64,000 nt of DNA from Thauera carbonicopians (lineage in GTDB: Bacteria > Pseudomonadota > Gammaproteobacteria > Burkholderiales > Rhodocyclaceae), in contig NZ_JANUXN010000012.1 in assembly GCF_025699485.1 (NCBI RefSeq), positions 62,001 to 126,000 of the forward strand, written 5' to 3'. Positions 398-63,947 of the stretch are shown here, in pieces (the stretch's first letter is position 1; every line of letters begins with the position of its first letter). The position numbers and the translations under genes were made by a program. The notes beneath the pieces are model-generated. The model did no database searches. It was given only the letters and a program-made list of their open reading frames with translations, and was not told where the DNA came from.

Positions 398-2590
398 ATG
401 GGCGCGTCGTTTCGTGCCGTGCCGGCCTGGGCGATTGCCGTGGCTGCCGCGGCGCTGGCGGCCGGCTGGGCAGCGGCGGGGCAGGCCATGCTCGTGGTCG
501 CGGCCGTGCTGGCGCTGCATGCGGCGTTCAGGCCGGCCGGGCGTCCGCGCGTGCTGTCGCTGGCCGCGGCGCTGGCCTGGGGATGCGTGCTGGCGCTGGG
601 CTGGCATTTCGCCGCGGACGGCTTCGCGCTGCGCTACGTCTGGCTGTACAGCAGCGCCGAGCTGCCGCTGCATCTGAAGCTGGCCAATGTGTGGGGGGGC
701 GATGAAGGCACGACGCTGCTGCTGGCGGCCTGCTGCCTGAGCCTGGCCGCGAGCGGCGTGCGCGCCGGGGCGGATGCGGGCCGCTGGTCCGTCGCCGCGG
801 CGATCGCCGCCTGGTATGCGCTGACCGCGGTCTGGCTGGCGCCGTTCGCGGCGACGCCGGCCAAATGGCTGGCGCAAGCGCCGTCGCAGGGCATGAACGC
901 CCATCTGATGAAGATCTGGATGCTGTTCCATGCGCCGCTGGTGGTGCTGGCCTATGCCTGGACGCTGTCGCTGGCGGCGCCCGCGCTGGCCGCCCTGCGC
1001 GGTGCACAGCCGGCCTGGCCCGGCCTCGCCCGCGCACGGGCGCGGCGGGCCTGGGCGGTACTGACCGCCGGCATCGGCTTCGGCATGGTGTGGGCTTTCG
1101 AGGATGCGATGTACGGCCAGGTGTGGCACTGGGACCCGGTGCAGACCGCGGCCTTCTGCCTGTGGTGCTTTCTCAGCGCCCATCTGCATGGTGTCGCCGG
1201 CTGGGCGCCCGGGCGCAAGCGCGGCTGGGCCGTGCCCTGGGCGGCCTTGCTTGCCGCGCTGATGGCGCCGCTGGCGATGGCGGTGACGCGCAATCCGATG
1301 CTCGCCAGCTCGCACCGCTACGTGGGGGCGGATTCGTGGATCGTCCATCTCGCGCTCGCCATCGTGCTGCTGCTGGCCGGGCTGGGGTGTGCGCTGGCCC
1401 GGCGCGATCGCAGAAGCGTGCCGGGGCGGCCGGCGTCGGGCATCGGGCTGTGGCTGGCGCAGCTCGGCTTCCTGGCGGCCGGCGTCGCGGCGCTGGCGCA
1501 GTTGGCTTTCGCTTTCGGTGCGGAAGCCAGGGGGATGCCGCGCCCGGACGAGTACAAGCCCTTTCTCGCCATGCTGGTCAACCTGATGCCCGGCGGCAGC
1601 GAACTGGACGCCTTGCGCCGGGCCTTCGATCAATGGGACGTGGATGGCTACGTGCTGGCCCGTCTGCTGCTGGCACCGCTGGTGGTGCTCGGCGGCGTCG
1701 GCGGCTGGTATTTTTTCCGCCGGCTGTCGAAGCGCACGAGCTGGGTGACGCTGGTGCTGGCGGCAGCGCTCGCGATGCTGGGGGCCGAGTCCGGCGGCCT
1801 GTTGACGCGTGGTTATGCAGGCATGGGCATCCTGTCGCAGAACATCGTTGCGCTGCTGCCGCTGCTCGACGCCAGCCTGGTCGCAGGGGCCTATCTGGCG
1901 GCGGGCTGCCTGGTCTGGGCCGGCGTGACGGCATGGCGCCTGGGCTGGAAAGGCGTGTCGGTGTCGGTGCCGCTGGCGGCGATCCATGCCGGCGTGGTGC
2001 TGATGCTGTGGGGCGGCATGATGGCGATCGCGCTCAACAGCTATTCGCAGCACGAGCTGGTGCCGGAGGGCGGGCTGGAAGAGGCGACCAGCGGCTGGGT
2101 GAAGGACAGGCATGGCTATACCTTCCGCCTGGCCGGAATCCGCTTCGGCGATGCCGACGACGGCGCCCGGCGTGGCGAGAACGGCATCCGCGCAGTGACG
2201 ACGGTGGAAGTGCGCGGCGCGCGCGGCGAAATCATGGACGGACAGACGCTCTATCGCGACAGCCGCAGCCTGCCCGAGCGTTACGACGGCCCGATGCGGC
2301 AGGTCTGTGAGCTGCTGGACTACCGCTATGCCCGCCACGTCACGACGCCGGGCTACCTGCTCGACCCCCTGATCGACCACGGCTGGGGCCGCAGCGTGCA
2401 GTTCTGGATCTCGCCCGCGGCGCTGCTGGAAGCGGCTGCTGCAAATGGCGAGCCGCCGGTCGTGGTCGCCGTGGTGAAGGTCTTCCCGTTCGTGTCGCTG
2501 CTGTGGACGGGCCTGGTGCTGGCGGCGCTGGGCGGTGCCTGGCTGGCCCTGCTGCCGCAGCGTGAGGCGAGGGCGGCACGGGCTGGCTGA
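398..2590 (+). CDS. Divergent CcmF/CcsA-family cytochrome c haem lyase
   Basis: This is a 730-residue polytopic membrane protein, mostly Leu/Ala/Trp-rich helices. It has a WGGDEGT loop near residue 100, like the WGGHEG loop of CcmF, and a tryptophan-rich WHWDPVQT segment near residue 243 matching the WWD haem-handling region of the CcmF/CcmC/CcsA superfamily. A soluble-looking segment follows at about residues 550-690 before a last membrane helix. The known family role is presenting haem to apocytochrome c CXXCH sites at the periplasmic face. It starts one base after the preceding stop, so translation is probably coupled. The rest of a ccm operon is not visible, and the WWD motif is degenerate (WHWD). 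It may be a specialised lyase serving one cytochrome; that is inference. Confidence 0.7.
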   Translation: MGASFRAVPAWAIAVAAAALAAGWAAAGQAMLVVAAVLALHAAFRPAGRPRVLSLAAALAWGCVLALGWHFAADGFALRYVWLYSSAELPLHLKLANVWGGDEGTTLLLAACCLSLAASGVRAGADAGRWSVAAAIAAWYALTAVWLAPFAATPAKWLAQAPSQGMNAHLMKIWMLFHAPLVVLAYAWTLSLAAPALAALRGAQPAWPGLARARARRAWAVLTAGIGFGMVWAFEDAMYGQVWHWDPVQTAAFCLWCFLSAHLHGVAGWAPGRKRGWAVPWAALLAALMAPLAMAVTRNPMLASSHRYVGADSWIVHLALAIVLLLAGLGCALARRDRRSVPGRPASGIGLWLAQLGFLAAGVAALAQLAFAFGAEARGMPRPDEYKPFLAMLVNLMPGGSELDALRRAFDQWDVDGYVLARLLLAPLVVLGGVGGWYFFRRLSKRTSWVTLVLAAALAMLGAESGGLLTRGYAGMGILSQNIVALLPLLDASLVAGAYLAAGCLVWAGVTAWRLGWKGVSVSVPLAAIHAGVVLMLWGGMMAIALNSYSQHELVPEGGLEEATSGWVKDRHGYTFRLAGIRFGDADDGARRGENGIRAVTTVEVRGARGEIMDGQTLYRDSRSLPERYDGPMRQVCELLDYRYARHVTTPGYLLDPLIDHGWGRSVQFWISPAALLEAAAANGEPPVVVAVVKVFPFVSLLWTGLVLAALGGAWLALLPQREARAARAG

Positions 2591-2655
2591 CCCGGATCCC
2601 CGACCCGGATCCTTTTCCGCACCGTGCCCAGGTGCGCTCTGCAGTGGGAGCAAAT

Positions 2656-2686
2656 CCCGGCGCAGGGCCGCGCCCGGGCATTTTTT
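2656..2686 (+). terminator. Rho-independent terminator after the haem lyase gene
   Basis: An inverted repeat (CCCGGCGC at 2656-2663 and GCGCCCGGG at 2670-2678, with one bulged base) is followed by six T at 2681-2686. It lies downstream of the plus-strand haem lyase gene. Its T run overlaps the stop codon of the convergent gene on the other strand. Confidence 0.6.
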
Positions 2687-4208
2687 ACTTCGCCGTCGGC
2701 ATGGCGAATTCAGCGCCCTTGCCGATGCTCTCCGGCCAGCGCTGCATGATGGACTTCTGCTTGGTGTAGAAGCGCACGCCTTCTTCCCCATAGGCATGCA
2801 TGTCGCCGAACAGGCTCTTCTTCCAGCCGCCGAAACCGTGCCAGGCCATCGGCACCGGAATCGGCACGTTGATGCCCACCATGCCGACCTCGATGCGCCG
2901 CGCGAACTCGCGCGCCACATGGCCGTCGCGGGTGAAGCAGGCGACACCGTTGCCGAACTCGTGCTCATTGATCAGATTCACCGCCGCGGCGAAATCGGGC
3001 ACCCGCACGCACGACAGCACCGGGCCGAAGATTTCTTCCCGATAGATGCTCATGTCGGTGCCGACGTGATCGAACAGCGTGCCGCCGAGCCAGAATCCCT
3101 GTTCGCAGCCTTCGCCGGCAGCCGAGCCGTGGAAGCCGCGGCCATCGACGAGCAACCGGGCGCCGGCAGCGACGCCCTGCTCGATGTAGCCGGTGATGCG
3201 CGCGTGCGCGGCAGGCGTCACGATGGGGCCCATCTCGGCCGCCGGATTGCTGCCGTCGAGCACTTTCAAGGCCTTCGTGCGCTCCACCAGCTTCGGCACG
3301 ATCCTGTCCGCCACGTCGCCCACCAGCACCGCCACCGAAATCGCCATGCAGCGCTCGCCGGCCGAACCGTAGCCTGCGCCGATCAGGGCATCGACGGCCT
3401 GGTCGATGTCGGCATCCGGCATCACCACCATGTGGTTCTTGGCGCCGCCGAGCGCCTGCACGCGCTTGCCGTGCCGTGCGCCGGTCTCGTAGATGTAGTT
3501 GGCGATGGGCGTGGAGCCGACGAAGGAGAGGGCCTTCACGTCCGGATGCTCCAGCAGCGCATCGACGGCTTCCTTGTCGCCCTGCACCACGTTGAACACG
3601 CCGTCGGGCAGGCCGGCCTCCTTCAGCAGATCGGCGATGAACAGGCTGGGGCTGGGGTCGATGGGGCTGGGCTTGAGCACGAAGCAGTTGCCGGCCGCGA
3701 GAGCCACCGGGAACATCCACATCGGCACCATCACCGGGAAGTTGAACGGCGTGACGCCGGCGACCACACCCAGCGGCTGGCGCATCGTCCAGTTGTCCAT
3801 GCCGGTGCTGACCTGGTCGGTGAAATCGCCCTTCAGCAACTGCGGAATGCCGCAGGCGAACTCGACGATGTCGATGCCGCGGGCGACTTCCCCCTGGGCG
3901 TCGGTGAAGACCTTGCCATGCTCGGCGGTGATGAGCGCGGCCAGTTCGTCCTTGTGCCGGTTCAGCAACTCGAGGAAGCGGAACATCACGCGCGCGCGCC
4001 GGATCGGCGGCGTGTCCGCCCAGGCGGGAAAGGCCGCACGGGCAGCGGCCACCGCGGCCGCCACGTCCTCCCGGCTGCCGAGCCGTACCTGGCGGCTGAC
4101 CGCGCCGGTGGCGGGGTTGTAGACGGGCTGCGTGCGGGTGCCGCTGCCGGCCGTGCGGGTGCCGCCGATGTACTGGGCGATCTCGGTATTGCTGCTGCTC
4201 TGCGTCAT
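2685..4208 (-). CDS. mmsA: CoA-acylating methylmalonate-semialdehyde dehydrogenase
   Basis: This is a 507-residue aldehyde dehydrogenase superfamily protein. The family known as MmsA/IolA oxidises (methyl)malonate semialdehyde to propionyl-CoA or acetyl-CoA with NAD+ and CoA, with loss of CO2. The catalytic Cys287 sits in GSAGERCMA; the [14 protein letters not shown] cofactor-pocket segment and the GHVAREF and WKKSLFGD blocks are all present, and length is normal. The start at 4208 was chosen because AAGGAG lies about 8 bases upstream; a longer in-frame extension lacks such a site. It is last in a four-gene minus-strand operon after an acyl-CoA dehydrogenase, which suits a valine, propionate or related short-chain acyl-CoA pathway. 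Confidence 0.9.
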
Positions 4209-6118: not shown

Positions 6119-6913
6119 TCAGCTGTTCGGCTGGACCTTGTAGGCTTTCTTGTTCACGAATTCGCCCAGGCGCGACTGGACGTCGCGCCCGGTCTGCACC
6201 ACTGCGGCCATCAGGCCCTCGGCGAACAGACCTTCGGTCGCGGCCATGTCGGAGATGCGGTCGATGGAGGTGACGATGGCGTAGTTCGAGAGCACGGCGT
6301 TGCCCGCGATCCTGCGTGCCAGTTCCAGGCCGAGGTCGTAGGCCGACCGGGGATTGGCTTCGGTGTTGCAGACGTAGTGGGCGAGGCCCAGGCGTTCGCC
6401 TTCCACGGCATCGAGCACTCGTCCGGTCAGCATCAGCTCCACCATCCGGCTGGGCGAGATGATCTTCGCCGTGCGGACCGTCGCGCCGCCGCCGGTGAAG
6501 ATGCCGCGCGTGCCTTCGGGCAGGGCGAAGAAGGTGCTCTTGTCGGCGACGCGCACATGGGCCGCGCTGGCAAGCTCCAGACCGCCGCCGACCACTGCGC
6601 CCTGCAGGCAGGCGATGACCGGAATGCCGCCGTGCTGGATCTTGTCGAAAGCACGGTGCCAGCCCTGGCACACACGCAGGAAATCGACTGCGGTGCGCTC
6701 CTTGTCGTGGTGTTCCCTGAGATCCAGGCCGGCGCAGAAGTGATCCCCCTCAGCCGTCATCAGGATGGCGCGGATGTGGCGGGGCACGTTGGAAAAGTAG
6801 GCATCGATCTCGGCGATCGCACATTCGTCCAGCGCATTGCGTTTATGCGCCTTGTTCAGGGTGACGATGCCGATGTTGTCCAGCTCGGAAATCTTCAGGA
6901 AGGTTTCGGACAT
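6119..6913 (-). CDS. Enoyl-CoA hydratase/isomerase (crotonase) family protein
   Basis: A 264-residue crotonase-fold protein. The oxyanion-hole region reads FCAGLDLREH and GAVVGGGLELASAAH, and both glutamates used by hydratases are kept: one in GGGLELA, the other in ALPEGTRG. That favours hydration of an enoyl-CoA over pure isomerisation. The start at 6913 is preceded by GAGGAGAA. It is second in the minus-strand operon, after the acyl-CoA ligase and before the acyl-CoA dehydrogenase, so it should hydrate that enzyme's product. A DmdD-like methylthioacryloyl-CoA hydratase role is possible given the neighbours but is not proved. Confidence 0.85.
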   Translation of the reverse strand: MSETFLKISELDNIGIVTLNKAHKRNALDECAIAEIDAYFSNVPRHIRAILMTAEGDHFCAGLDLREHHDKERTAVDFLRVCQGWHRAFDKIQHGGIPVIACLQGAVVGGGLELASAAHVRVADKSTFFALPEGTRGIFTGGGATVRTAKIISPSRMVELMLTGRVLDAVEGERLGLAHYVCNTEANPRSAYDLGLELARRIAGNAVLSNYAIVTSIDRISDMAATEGLFAEGLMAAVVQTGRDVQSRLGEFVNKKAYKVQPNS

Positions 6914-6954
6914 GAATGTTCTCCTCTCTAGGGGTTGCGGCGTGGGTGCTTGAA

Positions 6955-8565
6955 CTATTGATCCCGGGTAGCGCGCATGACGAGCGCGCGAAGCGCGGCT
7001 TTCTGGATCTTTCCCGTCGCGGTCATCGGCATGTGCTCGATGAACACGACCTTGTCGGGAATCGACCACTTCGCCATGCGCCCCTGGTAACGGGCGAGAA
7101 TCCGCTCGGCGGATGGGCGGGTATCGGGCTTGGGGACGATGAAGAGCACCGGACGCTCGCCCCATTGCTCGTTCGCTTCGGCGACGCACGCGGCCAGTTC
7201 GACGCCGGGCTCTTCCATGGCGATGTTTTCGATCTCGATCGACGAAATCCACTCGCCGCCGGATTTGATGACGTCCTTGCTGCGATCCGTGATGCGCAGA
7301 TAGCCCTCCGCGTCGATGCTGCCGACATCGCCGGTGCGGAACCAGCCGTCCTCGGTGGCGGGTTCCGCCTTGCCGTAGTAGCGTGAGACGACCCAGTTGC
7401 CCTGCACCATGAGATGCCCCGTGGCCATGCCGTCGTGCGGCAGCCGCCTGCCGTCGTCGTCGATCAGTTTGAAGCGGGCTCCGAACAATGGACGTCCCTG
7501 CGATGCCAGCACTTGCAGCACATCATCGGCGGGCATCCCTGCATGCCTGGGCAGCAGTTGGCAGACGGTGCCCAGCGGGGATACTTCCGTCATGCCCCAG
7601 GCGTGGCGGACAGTGACATTGCGCGTGCCGAAGGCGGCGATCATGTGCGGCGGGCAGGCGGCACCGCCGATGACGATGCGCTGCAGCGTGCTGAATGCCA
7701 GGCCCTGGCTTTCGACGTGATCCAGCACGCCTTTCCATACCGTGGGCACGCCGGCCGACAAGGTCACGCCTGCCTGCTCGCACAAGGCGTAGATCCGCTC
7801 GCCCTGCATGTTCGAACCCGGCAGCACGATCCTGGCACCCGACATCAGCGCGGAGTACGGCAGGCCCCAGGCGTTGACGTGGAACATCGGCACCAGCGGC
7901 ATGACCGCGTCGCTGCCCGCAATCGCCAGCGCGTTCGGATGGCAGGACGCATAGGCATGCAGCAGGGTCGAGCGGTGCGAATACAGCACGCCTTTCGGCG
8001 CGCCGGTGGTGCCGGAGGTGTAGCAGAGACCGCAGGCCGTGTTCTCGTCGAAGGCCGGCCAGTCGAAATTCCGGCTGTCAGCGCCCAGCCAGTCGGCGTA
8101 GATCGCTCCCTCTGCGTGCCCGCCGGCGCTTTCGTCGAGCAGCACCCAATGCTCCACTGACGGGCACCGTTCCCGCAGGTACTCGATGAGCTCGGCGAAA
8201 TGCACGTCGTAGAACACCGCCGCGTCCCGAGCATCGTTGATGATGAATTCGATCTGTTCGTGGGTCAGGCGCGGATTGACCGTATGGCAGATGGCGCCGA
8301 TGCCCGCAGTGGCATAGTAGATTTCCAGATGGCGGTAGGTATTCCATGCCAAAGTCGCCACGCGAGCTCCTGGGGCCACGCCACGGCGTGCCAAACCGAC
8401 GGCCAGTTCCTTGACCCTGCGAGCGAACTCCCGATAGGAGTAGCGGTGCAGGCTGCCGTCATCGAGGGCGGTCACGATCTGCTGATCTGCGCTCGTTTCA
8501 AGGGCATGTTCGAGGATCGAACTGATGAGCAAGGGCATGCACATCATGTTTCCGGGCTGCTCCAT
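6955..8565 (-). CDS. AMP-forming acyl-CoA ligase (fatty-acid/DmdB-like)
   Basis: A 536-residue ANL-superfamily adenylate-forming enzyme. It carries the phosphate loop YTSGTTGAPKGVLYSH, the GMTEVSPLG A5 motif, the DGWFRTGDVG A7 motif, the DRSKDVIKSGGEWIS hinge and the C-terminal lysine in TATGKIQK. The enzyme activates a carboxylic acid as acyl-AMP and transfers it to CoA, starting the pathway encoded by the operon. The start at 8565 has AGGAGA upstream. It is the first gene of the operon and faces a divergent AraC-family regulator across 198 bases. Long/medium-chain ligases and methylmercaptopropionate-CoA ligase (DmdB) are close relatives and cannot be separated here. Confidence 0.88.
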   Translation of the reverse strand: MEQPGNMMCMPLLISSILEHALETSADQQIVTALDDGSLHRYSYREFARRVKELAVGLARRGVAPGARVATLAWNTYRHLEIYYATAGIGAICHTVNPRLTHEQIEFIINDARDAAVFYDVHFAELIEYLRERCPSVEHWVLLDESAGGHAEGAIYADWLGADSRNFDWPAFDENTACGLCYTSGTTGAPKGVLYSHRSTLLHAYASCHPNALAIAGSDAVMPLVPMFHVNAWGLPYSALMSGARIVLPGSNMQGERIYALCEQAGVTLSAGVPTVWKGVLDHVESQGLAFSTLQRIVIGGAACPPHMIAAFGTRNVTVRHAWGMTEVSPLGTVCQLLPRHAGMPADDVLQVLASQGRPLFGARFKLIDDDGRRLPHDGMATGHLMVQGNWVVSRYYGKAEPATEDGWFRTGDVGSIDAEGYLRITDRSKDVIKSGGEWISSIEIENIAMEEPGVELAACVAEANEQWGERPVLFIVPKPDTRPSAERILARYQGRMAKWSIPDKVVFIEHMPMTATGKIQKAALRALVMRATRDQ

Positions 8566-14146: not shown

Positions 14147-14348
14147 GCCTGTCGCCTCGCTCCTTCGGCGTTCTCCCGCTGTCGGCGGTGACGACGACTT
14201 CCGGCAGCAGCCATTCCGTTTCGGCGGCCTGCATCACGAGCAGCCCTTCCTGAAAAGCCTCGCTGCGGGGTTGGATAGTGGCCGCAAAACCCAGCGCGTG
14301 CACTGCGATGACGCCCGTGGCGACCAGTGCCTTCGTCCATGTCTTCAT
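14064..14348 (-). CDS. Small secreted protein of unknown function
   Basis: A 94-residue product. Residues 1-23 form a good Sec signal peptide (MKTWTK, hydrophobic core, then ending near GFAAT). The mature part contains LLPEVVVTADSGR, a stretch like the periplasmic start of TonB-dependent receptors, but no barrel follows. GAGGAG lies 8 bases upstream of the ATG. After about residue 59 the sequence becomes Arg/His/Asp-rich and less protein-like. A second frame continues to 13937, so a frameshift is possible. Upstream are three copies of a TGTATCCCG motif. Function is unknown. Confidence 0.45.
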   Translation of the reverse strand: MKTWTKALVATGVIAVHALGFAATIQPRSEAFQEGLLVMQAAETEWLLPEVVVTADSGRTPKERGDRRAARHGSDCRFHCDDGGGAHRTPARRT

Positions 14349-14406
14349 GTGTCTGCTCCTCGGATCGGGGACCCGCCGTTCGGGCCGTGCTGCCATTTGA
14401 ACAGGC

Positions 14407-14490
14407 GGATGTATCCCGGATTTTTCCGGGGCGGACGGATTTGCAGAGGCATGTATCCCGATGCGGGTTGGACAATTCGGGATACATGCC
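14407..14490. promoter_or_regulatory. Triple TGTATCCCG element upstream of the small secreted-protein gene
   Basis: GGATGTATCCCGGA at 14407-14420 is followed by a perfect 14-bp inverted repeat with arms GGCATGTATCCCGA (14448-14461) and TCGGGATACATGCC (14477-14490). All three share TGTATCCCG. Two direct copies plus one inverted copy ahead of a gene suggest a protein-binding array; the regulator is unknown. Confidence 0.4.
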
Positions 14491-14534
14491 GGGGCTTGGG
14501 GGGGCCGGTGCTGCGGGGGGAGGCGAAAAAAACA

Positions 14535-14565
14535 AAACGCCAATCCTTTGGCAGGATTGGCGTTT
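14535..14565 (-). terminator. Rho-independent terminator of tRNA-Lys
   Basis: A perfect 12-bp stem (14535-14546 with 14554-14565) has a 7-base loop. On the minus strand it is followed by TGTTTTTTT. It lies 11 bases past the 3' end of the tRNA. Confidence 0.8.
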
Positions 14566-14575
14566 CATTTGAATT

Positions 14576-14651
14576 TGGTAGGCCGTGCAGGATTCGAACC
14601 TGCGACCAACGGATTAAAAGTCCGCTGCTCTACCAACTGAGCTAACGACCC
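14576..14651 (-). tRNA. tRNA-Lys (anticodon TTT)
   Basis: A complete 76-base cloverleaf on the minus strand. The acceptor stem GGGTCGT pairs with ACGGCCT (one G-U). The D arm contains AGCTCAGTTGGTAGAGC, the anticodon loop CTTTTAA gives TTT, and the T arm GCAGGTTCGAATCCTGC is followed by an encoded ACCA end. The gene stands alone and has its own terminator. Confidence 0.97.
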
Positions 14652-14721
14652 AAAAGAGAGGCAGAATTTTAGAAGCTGGGGGCAGCCACGTCAACAACGC
14701 ACCGCCGTCTCCCGGTCTGGC

Positions 14722-15828
14722 TCATGCTTCCCGCATCAGCAGCCAGTACTGGATCTTCATCGCGATGGCGCAGCCTGTGATGATGGCGGCGGTGGTGATG
14801 AAGGAACCGACGGCCAGGGTGGACAGGCCGGTGATACCCTGGCCGATGGTGCAGCCCAGCGCCGTCACGCCGCCGAAGCCCATCAGGATGCCGCCGATCA
14901 TGTGGCGGGCGAGGTCGGGGGCGTCGCGGAAGCCTTCGAGGCGGAAGCTCTTCGACAGCACGGCGTAGAGGGCCGAGCCGGTAATGACGCCGAGCACGCT
15001 GGCGATGCCGAAGGTGACGATGCGGCTGGTGTCGCTCCAGAACATCAGCAGTTCGAGCGTGAAGGCCAGCGGTCCGACGAAGGTGAGGGATTCGGCGCGG
15101 CCGCTGTTGGTGGCGATGAAGGCTTCTTCCAGGGTTTCGGGGTGTTCGGCGACGTAGCCGATGTGGCCGGAGACGTACCAGCCGGCGACCACGGTGGCAC
15201 CGACGATCACGCCGCCGAGCCAGACGTCGACAGTGCGCGCATCGCGGTCGGCGATGGCCCACAGCAGCAGGATGATGCCGATCAGGCCGGCGGCGATCGC
15301 CAGTGCGCTGGCCGGCTCGATGCCGGCGGCAGCGATGAAGGCAGGAATGTCCTGGGTATGTGGCAGCTCTGCGGCGACGGTATCGAGGACGTTGACGCGC
15401 CAGACCGCGAACAGGCCGCGCAGTGTCATGTAGGCACTGATGGCGAGGAAGACGAAGACCACCAGCGACTTGAGATTGCCGCCGCCGATGCGGATCAGGG
15501 TCTTGCTGCCGCAGCCCGAGGCCAGCGTCATGCCGACGCCGAAGGCGAGGCCGCCGACGACGTGCGACAGCCAGGTCAGTTTGCTGCCGGTGTAGATCGA
15601 GCGGGTGACGTCGATGAGTCCGGCCAGTTGCAATGCGGCGGTGCCGAGGATGGCGACCGCGATGGCAACGACCCACATGCGCATGCGGCTCCAGTCGCCC
15701 ATGTTGATGATGTCGGACACCGCACCCATGGTGCAGAAGTTGGTCCGATTGGCGACGAGGCCGAACACCGTGCTGACGGCGAAAGCGAGCCAGGCGATGG
15801 TGGAGGCGGAGACGATCGTTTCTTCCAT
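14722..15828 (-). CDS. YeeE/YedE family sulfur-compound transporter (TsuA-like)
   Basis: A 368-residue membrane protein with many hydrophobic helices and a two-half organisation. Each half has the conserved cysteine signature of the YeeE/YedE (sulf_transp) family: SGCGSKTL in the first and GCTIGQG in the second. An additional cysteine lies in RTNFCTMG near the N terminus. TsuA, the characterised member, imports thiosulfate through a chain of such cysteines. The start at 15828 gives a typical N terminus, but no strong ribosome-binding site is seen. The gene stands alone between tRNA-Lys and queC. The sulfate-assimilation genes are 13 kb away, so a link is only suggestive. Confidence 0.85.
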   Translation of the reverse strand: MEETIVSASTIAWLAFAVSTVFGLVANRTNFCTMGAVSDIINMGDWSRMRMWVVAIAVAILGTAALQLAGLIDVTRSIYTGSKLTWLSHVVGGLAFGVGMTLASGCGSKTLIRIGGGNLKSLVVFVFLAISAYMTLRGLFAVWRVNVLDTVAAELPHTQDIPAFIAAAGIEPASALAIAAGLIGIILLLWAIADRDARTVDVWLGGVIVGATVVAGWYVSGHIGYVAEHPETLEEAFIATNSGRAESLTFVGPLAFTLELLMFWSDTSRIVTFGIASVLGVITGSALYAVLSKSFRLEGFRDAPDLARHMIGGILMGFGGVTALGCTIGQGITGLSTLAVGSFITTAAIITGCAIAMKIQYWLLMREA

Positions 15829-60472: not shown

Positions 60473-61837
60473 TCAAACCCTGTCCAGCGGACTCACCACC
60501 CCCAGCCCGCCGCGGTTGAGCACATGGGTGTAGATCATCGTCGTCTTCACATCGGCGTGACCAAGCAATTCCTGCACGGTACGGATGTCGTAGCCACCTT
60601 CCAGCATGTGGGTGGCAAAACTGTGGCGCAAGGCATGGCAGCTCACCGGCTTGTCGATGCCCGCCGCTTTCGCCGCAGCATGAACCGCCTTCTGCAAGCT
60701 GCTCTCATGCAGGTGATGACGCCTCACGGTGCCGTCGCGCGGGTCGGCCGCCAGCCGACTGGCGGGAAAAACATACTGCCAACCCCATTCTCGCGCCGCA
60801 CCCGGATACTTGCGCGCCAGCGCATCAGGCAGATACACGGCCCCGGCCCCCAGCGCGAGGTCGTCACGATGCAAGGACCGGACTTTGTCCAGATGGCGCC
60901 GCAGCGGCTCAATCAGACGCTGCGGTAGCGGAACCACGCGATCCTTCTGGCCCTTGCCGTCGCGCACCACGATCTGGCCATAGGCAAAGTCGACATCCTT
61001 GATCCTCACGCGCAAGCATTCCATCAGGCGCATTCCGGTTCCGTACAGCAGTGCAGCCATCGTCGCCGGCATGCCCTGCAAAGCCGCCAGCAGTCGCCTC
61101 ACCTCGTCCGCCGTCAACACCACCGGCAAGCGCTGCGGACGCTTCGCGCACGCAAAAGCGCCCAGCTCGCCCAAGGGCTGTTCCAGCGCCTGAGCGTAAA
61201 AGAACACCAGCGCATTGAGCGCCTGATTCTGCGTATTGGCCGCCACTTGCCCCTGCACTGCAAGAGCTTGCAGAAAAGCCTTCACCTGTGCTGCCCCCAC
61301 CTGCGCTGGGTCGCGACCGCCGATAAAGCGCAGATAGCGCTCAAGCCATCCAAGATAGGCTTGCTCAGTGCGAATCGAATAATTGCGCTGTCGGATCACC
61401 GCTACCAGGCGGTCACCCGGTGTAGGCCGCGAACCGCCATCGTCATTTCCCGTGGGCAAGGACGGCGGACTGGTCATTGCGCGTGCAATCGTTGGATGGC
61501 TTGCCCCCAGGGTACGCCCCCCTTCGCGCCAGAACGCCCAATCCACCTCGGTCGCTGCAGGCGCCCCCACCATTGTCAACAAGTGGCGCACCGCATCAAC
61601 CGCCTGCGTAAACTGCCACGCAGGAATTCCGTCTACCCTGCCCAGCTCACCCAACCAGGACTCCACTGTGGCTGCCGAGTGAGTGGCGAGGCGCTGGCCG
61701 TCAGCGGCCTTGACATAGGCCGCGGCGTGGCGGGCGTACCACTGCAGCGCCGCCGGTTTCACACCGGATTCAGTGAGTGAAAACCGGTACTTACGCCAGA
61801 AGCGGGCTACCGTGTCGGAGTGGTTTGACAAGGTCAT
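60473..61837 (-). CDS. intI: Integron integrase with N-terminal extension
   Basis: A 454-residue tyrosine recombinase. Catalytic residues are R270 ([14 protein letters not shown]), H401/R404 ([12 protein letters not shown]), H427 and nucleophile Y436 ([10 protein letters not shown]). The segment around residues 340-360 ([20 protein letters not shown]) is the extra patch found only in integron integrases, where it binds bases flipped from folded attC sites. The usual length is about 320-340 residues. Here a second, diverged core-binding-like domain (about residues 1-115) and a linker precede the normal one (138-235). It is divergent from the cassette array and preceded by attI. Confidence 0.93.
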
Positions 61838-61971
61838 GAGCCTGGACTAACGTCATCGCCGATGCAGTTTGAAGTTGTAGGCGTAAATGCTAAACAAATA
61901 ATTTGGGGCGAGCAATATGTGGATTCCGCCTACTCATCCACCGGCCCGTTCCGTCTACTACACTGTTAGGC
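61838..61971 (+). other. attI recombination site region
   Basis: This non-coding stretch lies between the integrase start and the first cassette, and ends with GTTAGGC at 61965-61971, the simple-site sequence cut by IntI (G|TT). It is far more AT-rich than the genome. Possible promoter-like hexamers (TTGTAG at 61875-61880 and AATAAT about 16 bases later) could drive cassettes rightward, but are weak. Confidence 0.6.
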
Positions 61972-62338
61972 GGCTCAAGGAGGCTTCATGGCTAGGCACG
62001 ATTTCTCGGAACTACTTGCACTCTATCCTCAGGTCATAGAAGAGATGCCAGATATATTTACCAGCCACGAGTTCATTCTGCGCATTGCTCAACGTAACCA
62101 ACCTGCCTATGTGGAGGCCCTGTACGCCTACCGTGACGGGGGTGAGCCTTTCATGTCCGTCCACAAACAGCTCTCTACACTCCTCAATAAATGCACCGAT
62201 CTTATAGAGCCATTCGGTAGGGCATCCAGCCATGACATCTTTGGGCACTCCAACAGTTGCAGTCGGTGGCGCAAACGGTCTGCCGCCTAACAATTCATTC
62301 AAGCCGACGCCGCTTCGCGGCGCGGCTTAATTCAGGCG
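61966..62338 (+). mobile_element. Integron gene cassette 1
   Basis: The cassette starts at the T after G61965 (GTTAGGCGGC) and its attC begins with GCCGCCTAAC (62282-62291), the exact reverse complement of that start. This self-complementarity defines the cassette as one circularisable unit of 373 bases. It carries one gene on the plus strand. Confidence 0.88.
61988..62290 (+). CDS. Cassette 1 hypothetical protein
   Basis: A 100-residue, mostly helical protein with no domain I recognise. AAGGAGG lies 4 bases before the ATG, an ideal site for translation in a cassette without its own promoter. The stop TAA lies inside the first core site of attC, common for cassette genes. The end [15 protein letters not shown] resembles ends of other small cassette proteins (recalled impression). 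No signal peptide or membrane segment. Function is unknown. Confidence 0.7.
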
Positions 62339-62344
62339 TTAGAG
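62285..62344 (+). repeat. attC site of cassette 1
   Basis: GCCTAAC (62285-62291) and GTTAGAG (62338-62344) are the outer core sites. Between them AAGCCG-A-CGCCGC-TTC-GCGGCG-CGGCTT folds into a long imperfect stem with one bulged base, as needed for bottom-strand recombination. Length is 60 bases, the classical 59-base element size. Confidence 0.92.
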
Positions 62345-63617
62345 CTACACAGGGAACCAGCAATTGGAAGGATTAATTGAAGAGAAAGTGGTAATAAAAC
62401 CGCGTCGACAGATTTCCACCAAACTTCGTCAACTGTTATTGAAAAAGCATAATCACACATGTGTTTCATGCGGAATAAGTGATGATATTGTTCCGCTTGA
62501 AATGGCATCAATAGTGCCAACCTCAGAAGGCGGAGACTTTAGTGAAGAAAACTTCACCATTCTTTGCCCTAATTGCCATCGATCTTTTGATAGGCAGCCT
62601 AGAGAACACGAATTCATAAGTTTTCTATCTGAAATAATAAATGCTAATGACTCCTATAGTAATGTCCAAATAGAGCCGCTTTTAGGCCGTAGCACGCGTT
62701 ACCGAGCCGACCTTATAGTTAAGCGAGCAAGAGAAACCCTGCTGATTGAATGTAAATCATACCTAATAGGAAGCATGGCTCGCTCGAAAAACATCATCAG
62801 TCAACTTAATAAATACAAAGAAGAATACGGTGACTGTCAGATGGTATTGGCGGTCCCTGGTTCGCTAAAAGAAAGGGAGTTAGAAATATTCTCAGGAGAG
62901 AATGTTGAGGTCTGGGACATAGGATTTATTGCTCATAACTTCAAGCAGCAAATTATAGATGCCTCACCAAGTTACTATAAAACTCTATTTTTAACCCAAC
63001 TTGCGCGCGCCTCTAAACCGACTAGAGAAGAAGAACTTATTAAGTCTTTAGAGAAATGCCCTCCCGGGAGAGCTGATTGCTACGTTTATCAAAGTTTAGT
63101 CGGTGATATTCTAGAACACCTGTTCACGCCTCCTCTAAACAAGCCTATTCCAGAACTTTCTGATAAAACATTGGCAAATCGCCGTGATTTCATCATGCCA
63201 AATTATTCCGACAAGGGATTTTGGGCATTCATGAGGGGAAAGTACGGCGCTGATTATGTCATTATTGATGCAAAAAACTACGCAAGAAAGGTAAAGAAAA
63301 CAGAAGTTTTTCAAATGGCCAATTATCTGAAACAGCATGGTGCGGGTCTATTTGGAATCATCGTATCTCGACAGGGAGGGGATTCTGCGGGATGCGAACA
63401 TACACTCAGAGAGCAATGGCTAATTAGCCAGAAAATGATCTTGGCTTTAAGTGATGAGGACATTATTGAAATGTTGATGGCAAAGTCAGATGGTCGTCCA
63501 CCAGAGGATGTATTGGGAAGAAAAATTGAACAGTTTAGGTTGTCGATGTAGCTCTAACAAAGTGCTGCACACGGAAAAATTACTCGCTACGCTCCCAATT
63601 TTCCGGTGAGCACAGCG
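62339..63617 (+). mobile_element. Integron gene cassette 2
   Basis: The cassette begins after G62338 (GTTAGAGCTAC) and its attC starts with GTAGCTCTAAC (63548-63558), an 11-base exact reverse complement. The 1279-base unit is strongly AT-richer than the chromosome (many A/T third codon positions), a sign of distant origin. It holds a single gene. Confidence 0.9.
62364..63551 (+). CDS. Degenerate HNH zinc module fused to two PD-(D/E)XK nuclease-like domains
   Basis: A 395-residue protein, TTG start with GGGA 8 bases upstream (no earlier or nearby ATG). Residues ~30-75 form an HNH-like zinc knuckle (CVSC at 33-36, CPNCH at 68-72), but the catalytic His position reads LEMASIVP where active HNH proteins have (D/H)HI, so this module is probably a DNA-binding remnant. 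A first PD-(D/E)XK core follows: D116 in YRADLIV, E129-C-K131 in LIECKS, and Q147xxxY151. A second core occupies about 247-345: D275 in NRRDFIM, D302-A-K304 in IIDAKNY, and Q317xxxY321. Both cores keep their metal-binding residues. Known relatives cleave DNA; a restriction or phage-defence role is inferred from architecture and cassette location. Confidence 0.75.
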   Translation: MEGLIEEKVVIKPRRQISTKLRQLLLKKHNHTCVSCGISDDIVPLEMASIVPTSEGGDFSEENFTILCPNCHRSFDRQPREHEFISFLSEIINANDSYSNVQIEPLLGRSTRYRADLIVKRARETLLIECKSYLIGSMARSKNIISQLNKYKEEYGDCQMVLAVPGSLKERELEIFSGENVEVWDIGFIAHNFKQQIIDASPSYYKTLFLTQLARASKPTREEELIKSLEKCPPGRADCYVYQSLVGDILEHLFTPPLNKPIPELSDKTLANRRDFIMPNYSDKGFWAFMRGKYGADYVIIDAKNYARKVKKTEVFQMANYLKQHGAGLFGIIVSRQGGDSAGCEHTLREQWLISQKMILALSDEDIIEMLMAKSDGRPPEDVLGRKIEQFRLSM

Positions 63618-63623
63618 TTCGGC
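63552..63623 (+). repeat. attC site of cassette 2
   Basis: Core sites are CTCTAAC (63552-63558) and GTTCGGC (63617-63623). Inner arms GTGCT and CGGAAAAATT pair with AATTTTCCG and AGCAC around a roughly 15-base loop. The right core site departs from the usual GTTRRRY at one position (C for R). Length is 72 bases. Confidence 0.82.
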
Positions 63624-63659
63624 GTCACCATCACGCAGGCAGTACAGGGGGGTAATTTC

Positions 63660-63947
63660 ATGACTCGAAAAGACGCAATCCACAAACTGCTAGACGATGC
63701 TGCCATGGAGTTACTTGGGTTCATCAAAGATTGCGAGTCAAAGCTCAAGGACCGCGATCGCTGGGTGCCTGCGGCTGAGATTAAGGACAGCCTCGACCTC
63801 AATTTTGTCGCCGTTCCGCGGAGCGGAAAGCAGTACGGTCCGAAAGGATGGGTGTTTGCCACGCTCGCACGGATGCTTAAGGACAAGTCGCTCGTCGAAT
63901 ACAAAAAGACCGGGAGCCGCGCTTTTTATAGGTCTGCTCACAAGTGA
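63660..63947 (+). CDS. Cassette 3 hypothetical protein, possible winged-helix
   Basis: A 95-residue basic protein. The C-terminal half (GWVFATLARMLKDKSLVEYKKTGSRAFYR) looks like a recognition helix followed by a beta wing, so a winged helix-turn-helix is possible. The N-terminal half is helical. AGGGGGG lies about 8 bases before ATG 63660. An in-frame GTG further upstream (63606) is rejected because it lies before the cassette junction at 63617/63618. Function is unknown. Confidence 0.65.
   Translation: MTRKDAIHKLLDDAAMELLGFIKDCESKLKDRDRWVPAAEIKDSLDLNFVAVPRSGKQYGPKGWVFATLARMLKDKSLVEYKKTGSRAFYRSAHK

Follow-up and report, generated by a model that had tools for sequence, protein, structure and literature searches.

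The 64,000-nucleotide stretch of Thauera carbonicopians DNA analysed here (the window) carries an integron in which an integrase gene is followed by an array of short open reading frames and attC sites, and the nuclease gene that concerns us is the second cassette ORF behind the integrase (Table 1). The upstream attC folds well (z -4.0, none of 200 shuffles as good); the likely downstream one is weak on its own (z -1.5, 18 of 200 shuffles as good), and its stem layout equals that of another attC in an array of Psychromonas sp. RZ5. That strain holds, at a contig edge (L001), a copy of the nuclease gene which is also a cassette, with the same GTTAGAGCTACA start followed by a TTG start codon, its own attC (z -5.6) and a further attC downstream (z -3.65). 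With an integrase matching TIGR02249 beside an ORF-attC array, a well-folding upstream site and the same gene found as a cassette elsewhere, the cassette-borne nature of the gene, which a first-pass annotation of the sequence had proposed, is borne out. The two cassettes have the gene in common and differ in their attC sequences (L001:1303-1420 compared with 63548-63628 of the window), the attC of the window nuclease resembling that of the following cassette in Psychromonas. As for the remainder of the integron, about 144 extra residues precede the TIGR02249 portion of the integrase, and the 128,194-base contig extends 2.2 kb past the window end with further short ORFs, one of them a cassette ORF (L008:4039-4299) that in our own reading looks like a small helix-hairpin-helix protein.

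Table 1. Features of the integron and modules of the nuclease (window coordinates).
Feature	Position	Strand	Basis or remark
Integron integrase IntI, divergent from the cassettes	60473..61837	-	TIGR02249 1.3e-138, residues 145-454 of 454
First recombination junction GTTAGGC, start of the cassette array	61965..61971	+	Pattern scan
Cassette 1 ORF, 100 aa	61988..62290	+	Family searches: no significant match
attC of cassette 1, bordering the nuclease cassette on its upstream side	62285..62344	+	Sequence, fold
Three-module nuclease gene (HNH-like zinc module, Mrr/AF1548-like core, FokI-like core)	62364..63551	+	395 aa
HNH-like zinc module, residues 33-73 (C33, C36, C68, C71; A48-S49 at the catalytic D/H-H position)	62460..62582	+	Pfam HNH, McrA alignment
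Core 1, residues 80-203, PD-(D/E)XK fold (D116, E129, K131)	62601..62972	+	Mrr_cat, structural match, conservation
Core 2, residues 218-395, FokI-cleavage-domain-like fold (D275, D302, K304, N305, Y321, K357)	63015..63548	+	Structure, PDC-M36A, conservation
Likely attC of the nuclease cassette, beginning directly after the stop codon	63552..63623	+	Sequence, fold
Cassette 3 ORF, 95 aa from ATG	63660..63947	+	Family searches: no significant match

The nuclease ORF begins with a TTG codon and stays open for 395 codons, in which every residue singled out by the first-pass annotation was located (C33, C36, C68, C71, A48-S49, D116, E129-C-K131, Q147/Y151, D275, D302-A-K304 and Q317/Y321). The Psychromonas homologue is 85% identical to it in protein and 78.8% in nucleotide sequence. 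Between these two copies dN is 0.091 and dS 1.72, and the protein is therefore under purifying selection, the dN/dS of about 0.05 being rough given that a dS of 1.72 is close to saturation. By module, the identity between the two copies is 90% in core 2, 82% in the HNH part and 79% in core 1, making core 2 the most conserved. Sequence matches beyond chance were obtained to Pfam HNH and Mrr_cat, both above the curated whole-protein cut-offs, and to PDC-M36A and phrog_31260 for the carboxy-terminal half. The AlphaFold2 model, built on 16 aligned sequences, has a pLDDT of 83.3 and a pTM of 0.53, and because of the latter value the mutual placement of the three modules is uncertain. It predicts two separate restriction-endonuclease folds in one chain; the first-pass annotation had named two PD-(D/E)XK cores and had stated that a model with one such fold or none would speak against them, and the model, its structural matches and the conserved residues all agree with its claim. 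The three-module anatomy of the nuclease is thus well supported.

At the amino terminus, Pfam HNH (PF01844) is matched with an E-value of 5.5e-6, and the closest named relatives of the module by sequence are IscB and McrA. What it has in common with this type of HNH comprises the zinc cysteines and their surrounding sequence, about 60 residues only, and in the alignment with McrA the A48-S49 of the window protein replace the catalytic pair, standing opposite H-H. A separate model of residues 1-95 is of low confidence (pLDDT 67.9), and the structural matches listed for it are mostly HNH (Cas9 HNH, Cap5, EndoVII and McrA), plus DotN and a few unrelated proteins, with a best Z of only 5.4, low enough for a common arrangement. 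Five proteins with all three modules were found, namely those of the window, of Psychromonas, of two viral contigs (L036 and L037) and of Escherichia coli strain I4. All five keep the four zinc cysteines, and the canonical (D/H)-H pair is absent in each of the five compared: both cassette copies (window and Psychromonas) have A-S at this position, the E. coli protein has A-H, and L037 and L036 carry S-H and E-H, respectively. Since the cysteines are retained and the catalytic pair is altered, the HNH knuckle was kept while its active site degraded, in agreement with the Ala-Ser noted on first inspection, and this degradation is most advanced in the two cassette copies.

Core 1 gives a match to Mrr_cat of 1.2e-5 for the whole protein, the Mrr_cat stretch by itself failing 0.01. 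When the AlphaFold2 model was compared by VIA-align, core 1 matched AF1548 with a Z of 12.9 (rmsd 2.4 over 116 residues), and it also resembles VC1899, Cdn1, Card1, Can2 and EndoMS in structure, with Z of 8.5-11.7 for Cdn1, Card1 and Can2. The AF1548/Card1/Can2/Mrr group has the fold in common with core 1, which in the window protein is fused to a second core and comes without a matched CARF (ligand) domain; to Type IV restriction enzymes, the likeness seen in the window protein is its Mrr_cat match. In a conservation set of 22 relatives (counting L042, a near-copy of L041, with the E. coli copy outside the set), D116 and the D/E at position 129 are present in 22/22 and K131 in 20/22, the exceptions being L036 (E) and L038 (R). 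Because some active restriction enzymes carry a different residue at the lysine position, these replacements are no proof of lost activity. Core 1 therefore shows both the fold and the D...ExK residues of a PD-(D/E)XK nuclease, and the E. coli copy retains the catalytic residues of both cores. The QxxxY motifs, which had been cited as marks of the fold, are literally present in the window protein; among the 22 relatives Q147 is found in 12, Y151 in 5 and Q317 in 5, only Y321 being kept in all, and because the motif is not conserved we rejected it as evidence for the fold.

Core 2 had been taken for a second Mrr/RecB-like core, and here the model points elsewhere. By VIA-align it resembles the cleavage domain of FokI (2fok, Z 12.7, rmsd 3.0, 155 residues), along with both subunits of BspD6I (Z around 12), AspBHI (Z 10.5) and MspJI (Z 10.2), so that it is predicted to be FokI-like in fold, without a significant sequence link to FokI. 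In a plain Foldseek search of the PDB, proteins of the core 1 type lead the matches listed, with TM-scores of 0.2-0.3 by query length, and FokI is not among the 50 listed, BspD6I being one of them; a BFVD fold search gave weak matches, several of them named restriction endonuclease. When the sequence profiles of core 2 and FokI were compared, no significant similarity emerged, and only the motif round D302-x-K304 aligns (VIIDAKNYA in core 2, VIVDTKAYS in FokI, the latter checked against 1fok), the catalytic residues of FokI being D450, D467 and K469. The FokI cleavage-domain family PF09254 (FokI_cleav_dom) has no match listed for the window protein at E-values up to 1, nor is it among the families listed for 16 family members up to 0.01, and the FokI family model found nothing in 249 genomes, where the controls were equally silent. 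Searching PDB sequences with a profile of core 2 yielded 12 matches at chance level, to cellulases and endoglucanases, which were discarded. The recognition domains of FokI are unmatched in the window protein. Each of D275, D/E302, K304, N305, Y321 and K357 is present in 22/22 relatives, so that all of them keep the D...(D/E)xK residues that accompany the fold in the window protein. When seven PDC-M36A-type proteins and a stand-alone copy are added, D275, D/E302, K304 and N305 are kept in 30/30 carboxy-terminal modules, and Y321 and K357 in 24/30.

In regards to distribution, matches turned up in 10 of the 398 genomes searched from the phylum and in 6 of 399 from the order, the window's own genome included, and a scan of viral contigs with the alignment of the carboxy-terminal module brought up 14 relatives; a second scan with the three-module alignment returned the two viral contigs already named and no others. 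The plasmid search gave 37 records, some of them matching through the HNH part alone (e.g. IscB), from which four loci were taken; no close DNA copies of the window gene were found on plasmids, nor did a protein search reveal relatives of L037 there at 1e-20. Among 369 genomes searched from the class, the window's own is the only one with the three-module form, and among 5426 E. coli genomes it is that of strain I4 alone, whose protein is 62% identical to that of the window. Of the five copies of this form, two are integron cassettes, two come from viral contigs and one lies in an island. It could be argued that such a protein is a domesticated nuclease of DNA repair or maintenance without a role in defence, since the structural matches of core 1 include EndoMS (Z 9.7) and a repair endonuclease from archaea (Z 9.5), but so patchy an occurrence, and copies found only on cassettes, viral contigs and an island, make this highly improbable.

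To place the three-module proteins, we built a tree of 30 carboxy-terminal modules, for which L042 was omitted (as it was from the neighbour ORF set) and ORFs were taken from 16 of the 26 loci L010-L035, with L024, L029 and L031 among those outside the tree. The five form one group (98/92) which is sister to L038 (100/100). This topology fits a single gain of the HNH module, a reading of the sequences that is to be qualified by the long branches of the tree (L025, L023 and others) and by L038, which begins at a contig edge and whose missing HNH module is therefore unsure. The carboxy-terminal module is found in four contexts, preceded by HNH and core 1, by core 1 without HNH, by the amino terminus of PDC-M36A, or by no other module. 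The stand-alone core-2 protein (L023:1471-2022) has about 184 aa.

Two families described by others contain this module. The first, phrog_31260, is a two-core family with no function assigned, which matches 16/16 members scanned (best 2.8e-206); its 365 positions lack an HNH-like module, unlike the window protein, to which it matches with 6.9e-24 over residues 211-393, the best stretch covering core 2 and its lead-in only. The second is PDC-M36A of PADLOC, whose positions 288-452 of 457 match residues 225-392 of the window protein (3.7e-14) and whose carboxy-terminal module is common to 16/16 family members scanned. Its amino-terminal half (about 1-250 of 457) is unmatched in the window protein, and a different amino terminus of about 270-310 aa stands where the window protein has the HNH module and core 1. 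PDC-M36A-type proteins keep the D, E/D, K and N in 7/7 and have lost Y321 and K357 in 6/7. The name PDC-M36 did not occur in the papers listed by the literature searches; according to PMC12988326, the PDCs of PADLOC are guilt-by-embedding candidates, mostly untested.

That the core-2 module is joined to unrelated amino termini, as effector domains are, and that in PDC-M36A another amino terminus replaces the nuclease core, would suit an infection-triggered suicide nuclease, in which, once the amino-terminal modules have detected a phage product, core 2 destroys the DNA of host and phage alike (abortive infection). The resemblance of core 1 to the cores of Card1 and Can2, listed as bound to or activated by cyclic oligoadenylate, points the same way. 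We nevertheless consider this unlikely, since core 1 keeps its catalytic residues in 20/22 relatives, which is unexpected for a pure sensor, and no ligand-binding domain was matched.

The neighbourhoods of the relatives were analysed through 71 hand-chosen ORFs of 137, at 16 of 17 loci (L036 omitted), and known defence genes were found near them at 5/16 loci. Because no background set was scanned, this is an association and not a measured enrichment. The LmuA, B and C genes of Lamassu directly adjoin the nuclease gene in L003, GajB and part of GajA (Gabija) lie about 3.6 kb from it in L004, IetA and IetS (IetAS) directly 3′ of it in L005, HsdS about 1.3 kb from it in L048, and AbiH (3.4e-58) directly 3′ of it in L037. 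Given the HsdS, a modification enzyme may stand close to the L048 relative. Matches to PtuA and Aga_Nuclease, among the 25 of 217 families listed in the neighbour scan, have no assigned locus. The first-pass annotation had called for homologues to be sought in integrons and defence islands, and besides the Psychromonas cassette the search yielded the E. coli copy, which sits in an island of yfj/ypj genes. About 8 kb upstream of it the record annotates SAVED, Mov34 and ThiF proteins with a nucleotidyltransferase, a set we take to be CBASS-type genes.

Further observations were made at some of these loci. The E. coli homologue stands in its island between two more genes annotated as HNH endonucleases (L053:8046-9086 and 14310-15005). 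On a Rhizobium plasmid, a gene annotated GASH (L005:433-1503) lies upstream, and IetAS downstream, of the two-core relative. In L037, ORFs that we read as UmuC-like polymerases (1740-3071 and 6525-7787) bracket the nuclease and AbiH genes, perhaps marking an insertion hot spot.

In the phage locus L041, the nuclease gene lies between tail completion and baseplate genes, and in L043 and L045 a comparable arrangement of ORFs is seen, judged by size and position only. The L041 position is one that an accessory gene of a prophage could occupy whatever its purpose. Together with the HNH ancestry of the amino-terminal module and the 14 relatives on viral contigs, it could also speak for a selfish nuclease of mobility or competition, homing-like or serving phage-phage exclusion, spread by integrons and prophages with no benefit to the defence of the cell. 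This seems to us quite improbable, as cassettes are moved by IntI and attC without requiring an endonuclease, the HNH module has a degraded active site and some relatives stand near defence genes.

We infer a link to defence because the carboxy-terminal module is that of the defence candidate PDC-M36A and because defence genes occur near relatives. The same evidence (the module, the 5/16 loci and the genes about 8 kb away in E. coli) makes the defence-linked, self-contained cleaver of the first-pass annotation plausible. A review (PMC12409362) describes integrons as a reservoir of anti-phage cassettes reported in 2025, with restriction-type systems reduced in size. In the DefensePredictor study (PMC13092281), PD-(D/E)XK domains occur in 13 of the 31 additional systems that were validated; among 24 low-score remote-homology units, including six PD-(D/E)XK nucleases, only one protected. 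Homology alone is thus a weak predictor of defence, and our claim is a moderate one: with a probability of about 0.55, the gene would encode a self-contained DNA endonuclease, spread as an integron cassette and most likely acting in defence against phage or foreign DNA, with no methylase in the cassette.

Pfam showed no methyltransferase families in cassettes 1 and 3 of the window, in two neighbours each of L037 and L001, or in two further cassettes of L008. Since no methyltransferase was found to accompany the gene, host DNA must escape cleavage in some other way, and the presence of two cores, an HNH without its catalytic pair and no methyltransferase in the scanned neighbours suggests that the nuclease itself distinguishes foreign from own DNA. 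In the mechanism we propose, the zinc module with its degraded HNH site would, together with the Mrr-like core 1, find and hold foreign DNA, and the FokI-like core 2 would cut once two cores meet on it, whether it pairs with core 1 within one chain or with the core 2 of a second chain. Modification of the target, as in Type IV restriction, or a trigger present only during infection would be the likeliest means of sparing the host. This division into modules that hold and a core that cuts follows from two precedents in PMC4081073, which holds that FokI-type cleavage is thought to require two domains meeting and describes as Type IIT those enzymes (Mva1269I, BtsCI, AciI and BsrI) that unite two different catalytic domains in a single chain. 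DNA cleavage, the target, the division of labour between modules and an anti-phage effect are what we infer from the anatomy and its relatives.

By fold and residues, the window protein is like the Type IIT enzymes Mva1269I, BtsCI and BsrI in having two different catalytic sites per chain; unlike them, it has no methyltransferase beside its gene among the neighbours scanned, carries a zinc HNH-like amino terminus and is borne on a cassette. It could function in their manner, core 1 and core 2 each making a cut in one strand at, or close to, a single asymmetric site, with host DNA spared by the rarity of the site or by methylation from an unlinked enzyme. Both catalytic triads are conserved in 20/22 members, the precedents of PMC4081073 exist in single chains, and the subunits of BspD6I rank high among the structures that core 2 matches. 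We regard this as possible but doubtful, given that no methyltransferase was seen in the cassette or the Pfam-scanned neighbours (which bears on linked genes only), that the core-1 lysine is missing in 2/22 and that no target-recognition domain was matched in the window protein.

Returning to the cassette-borne defence nuclease that we prefer, each of its parts and the two-core family are known, and what is new within the limits of our search is the order of the parts in one chain. The first-pass annotation knew of no described system with that order. Two catalytic domains per chain already exist in Type IIT enzymes (PMC4081073), and the two-core family is phrog_31260; for the exact domain order we found no published description among titles and the openings of abstracts, the cassettes of Darracq and Kieffer (2025) lying outside this comparison. 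Overall, what that annotation observed is confirmed and its interpretation is supported in part. More tentatively, and at somewhat less than even odds, the protein may be the first recognised member of a one-gene, methylase-free family of anti-phage nucleases, in which a disarmed, DNA-reading HNH finger was added once to an older two-core nuclease and which integrons spread between bacteria.

The HNH knuckle has lost its catalytic residues and kept its zinc cysteines beside two cores with intact residues, which makes it testable whether such a knuckle has turned from a cutting into a recognition part. The anatomy also gives the function-less phrog_31260 and the carboxy terminus of PDC-M36A a testable mechanism, with two different cores that can each be removed by point mutation, and with it the defence reservoir of integrons, reported in 2025 and reviewed in PMC12409362, gains a compact candidate of cassette size.
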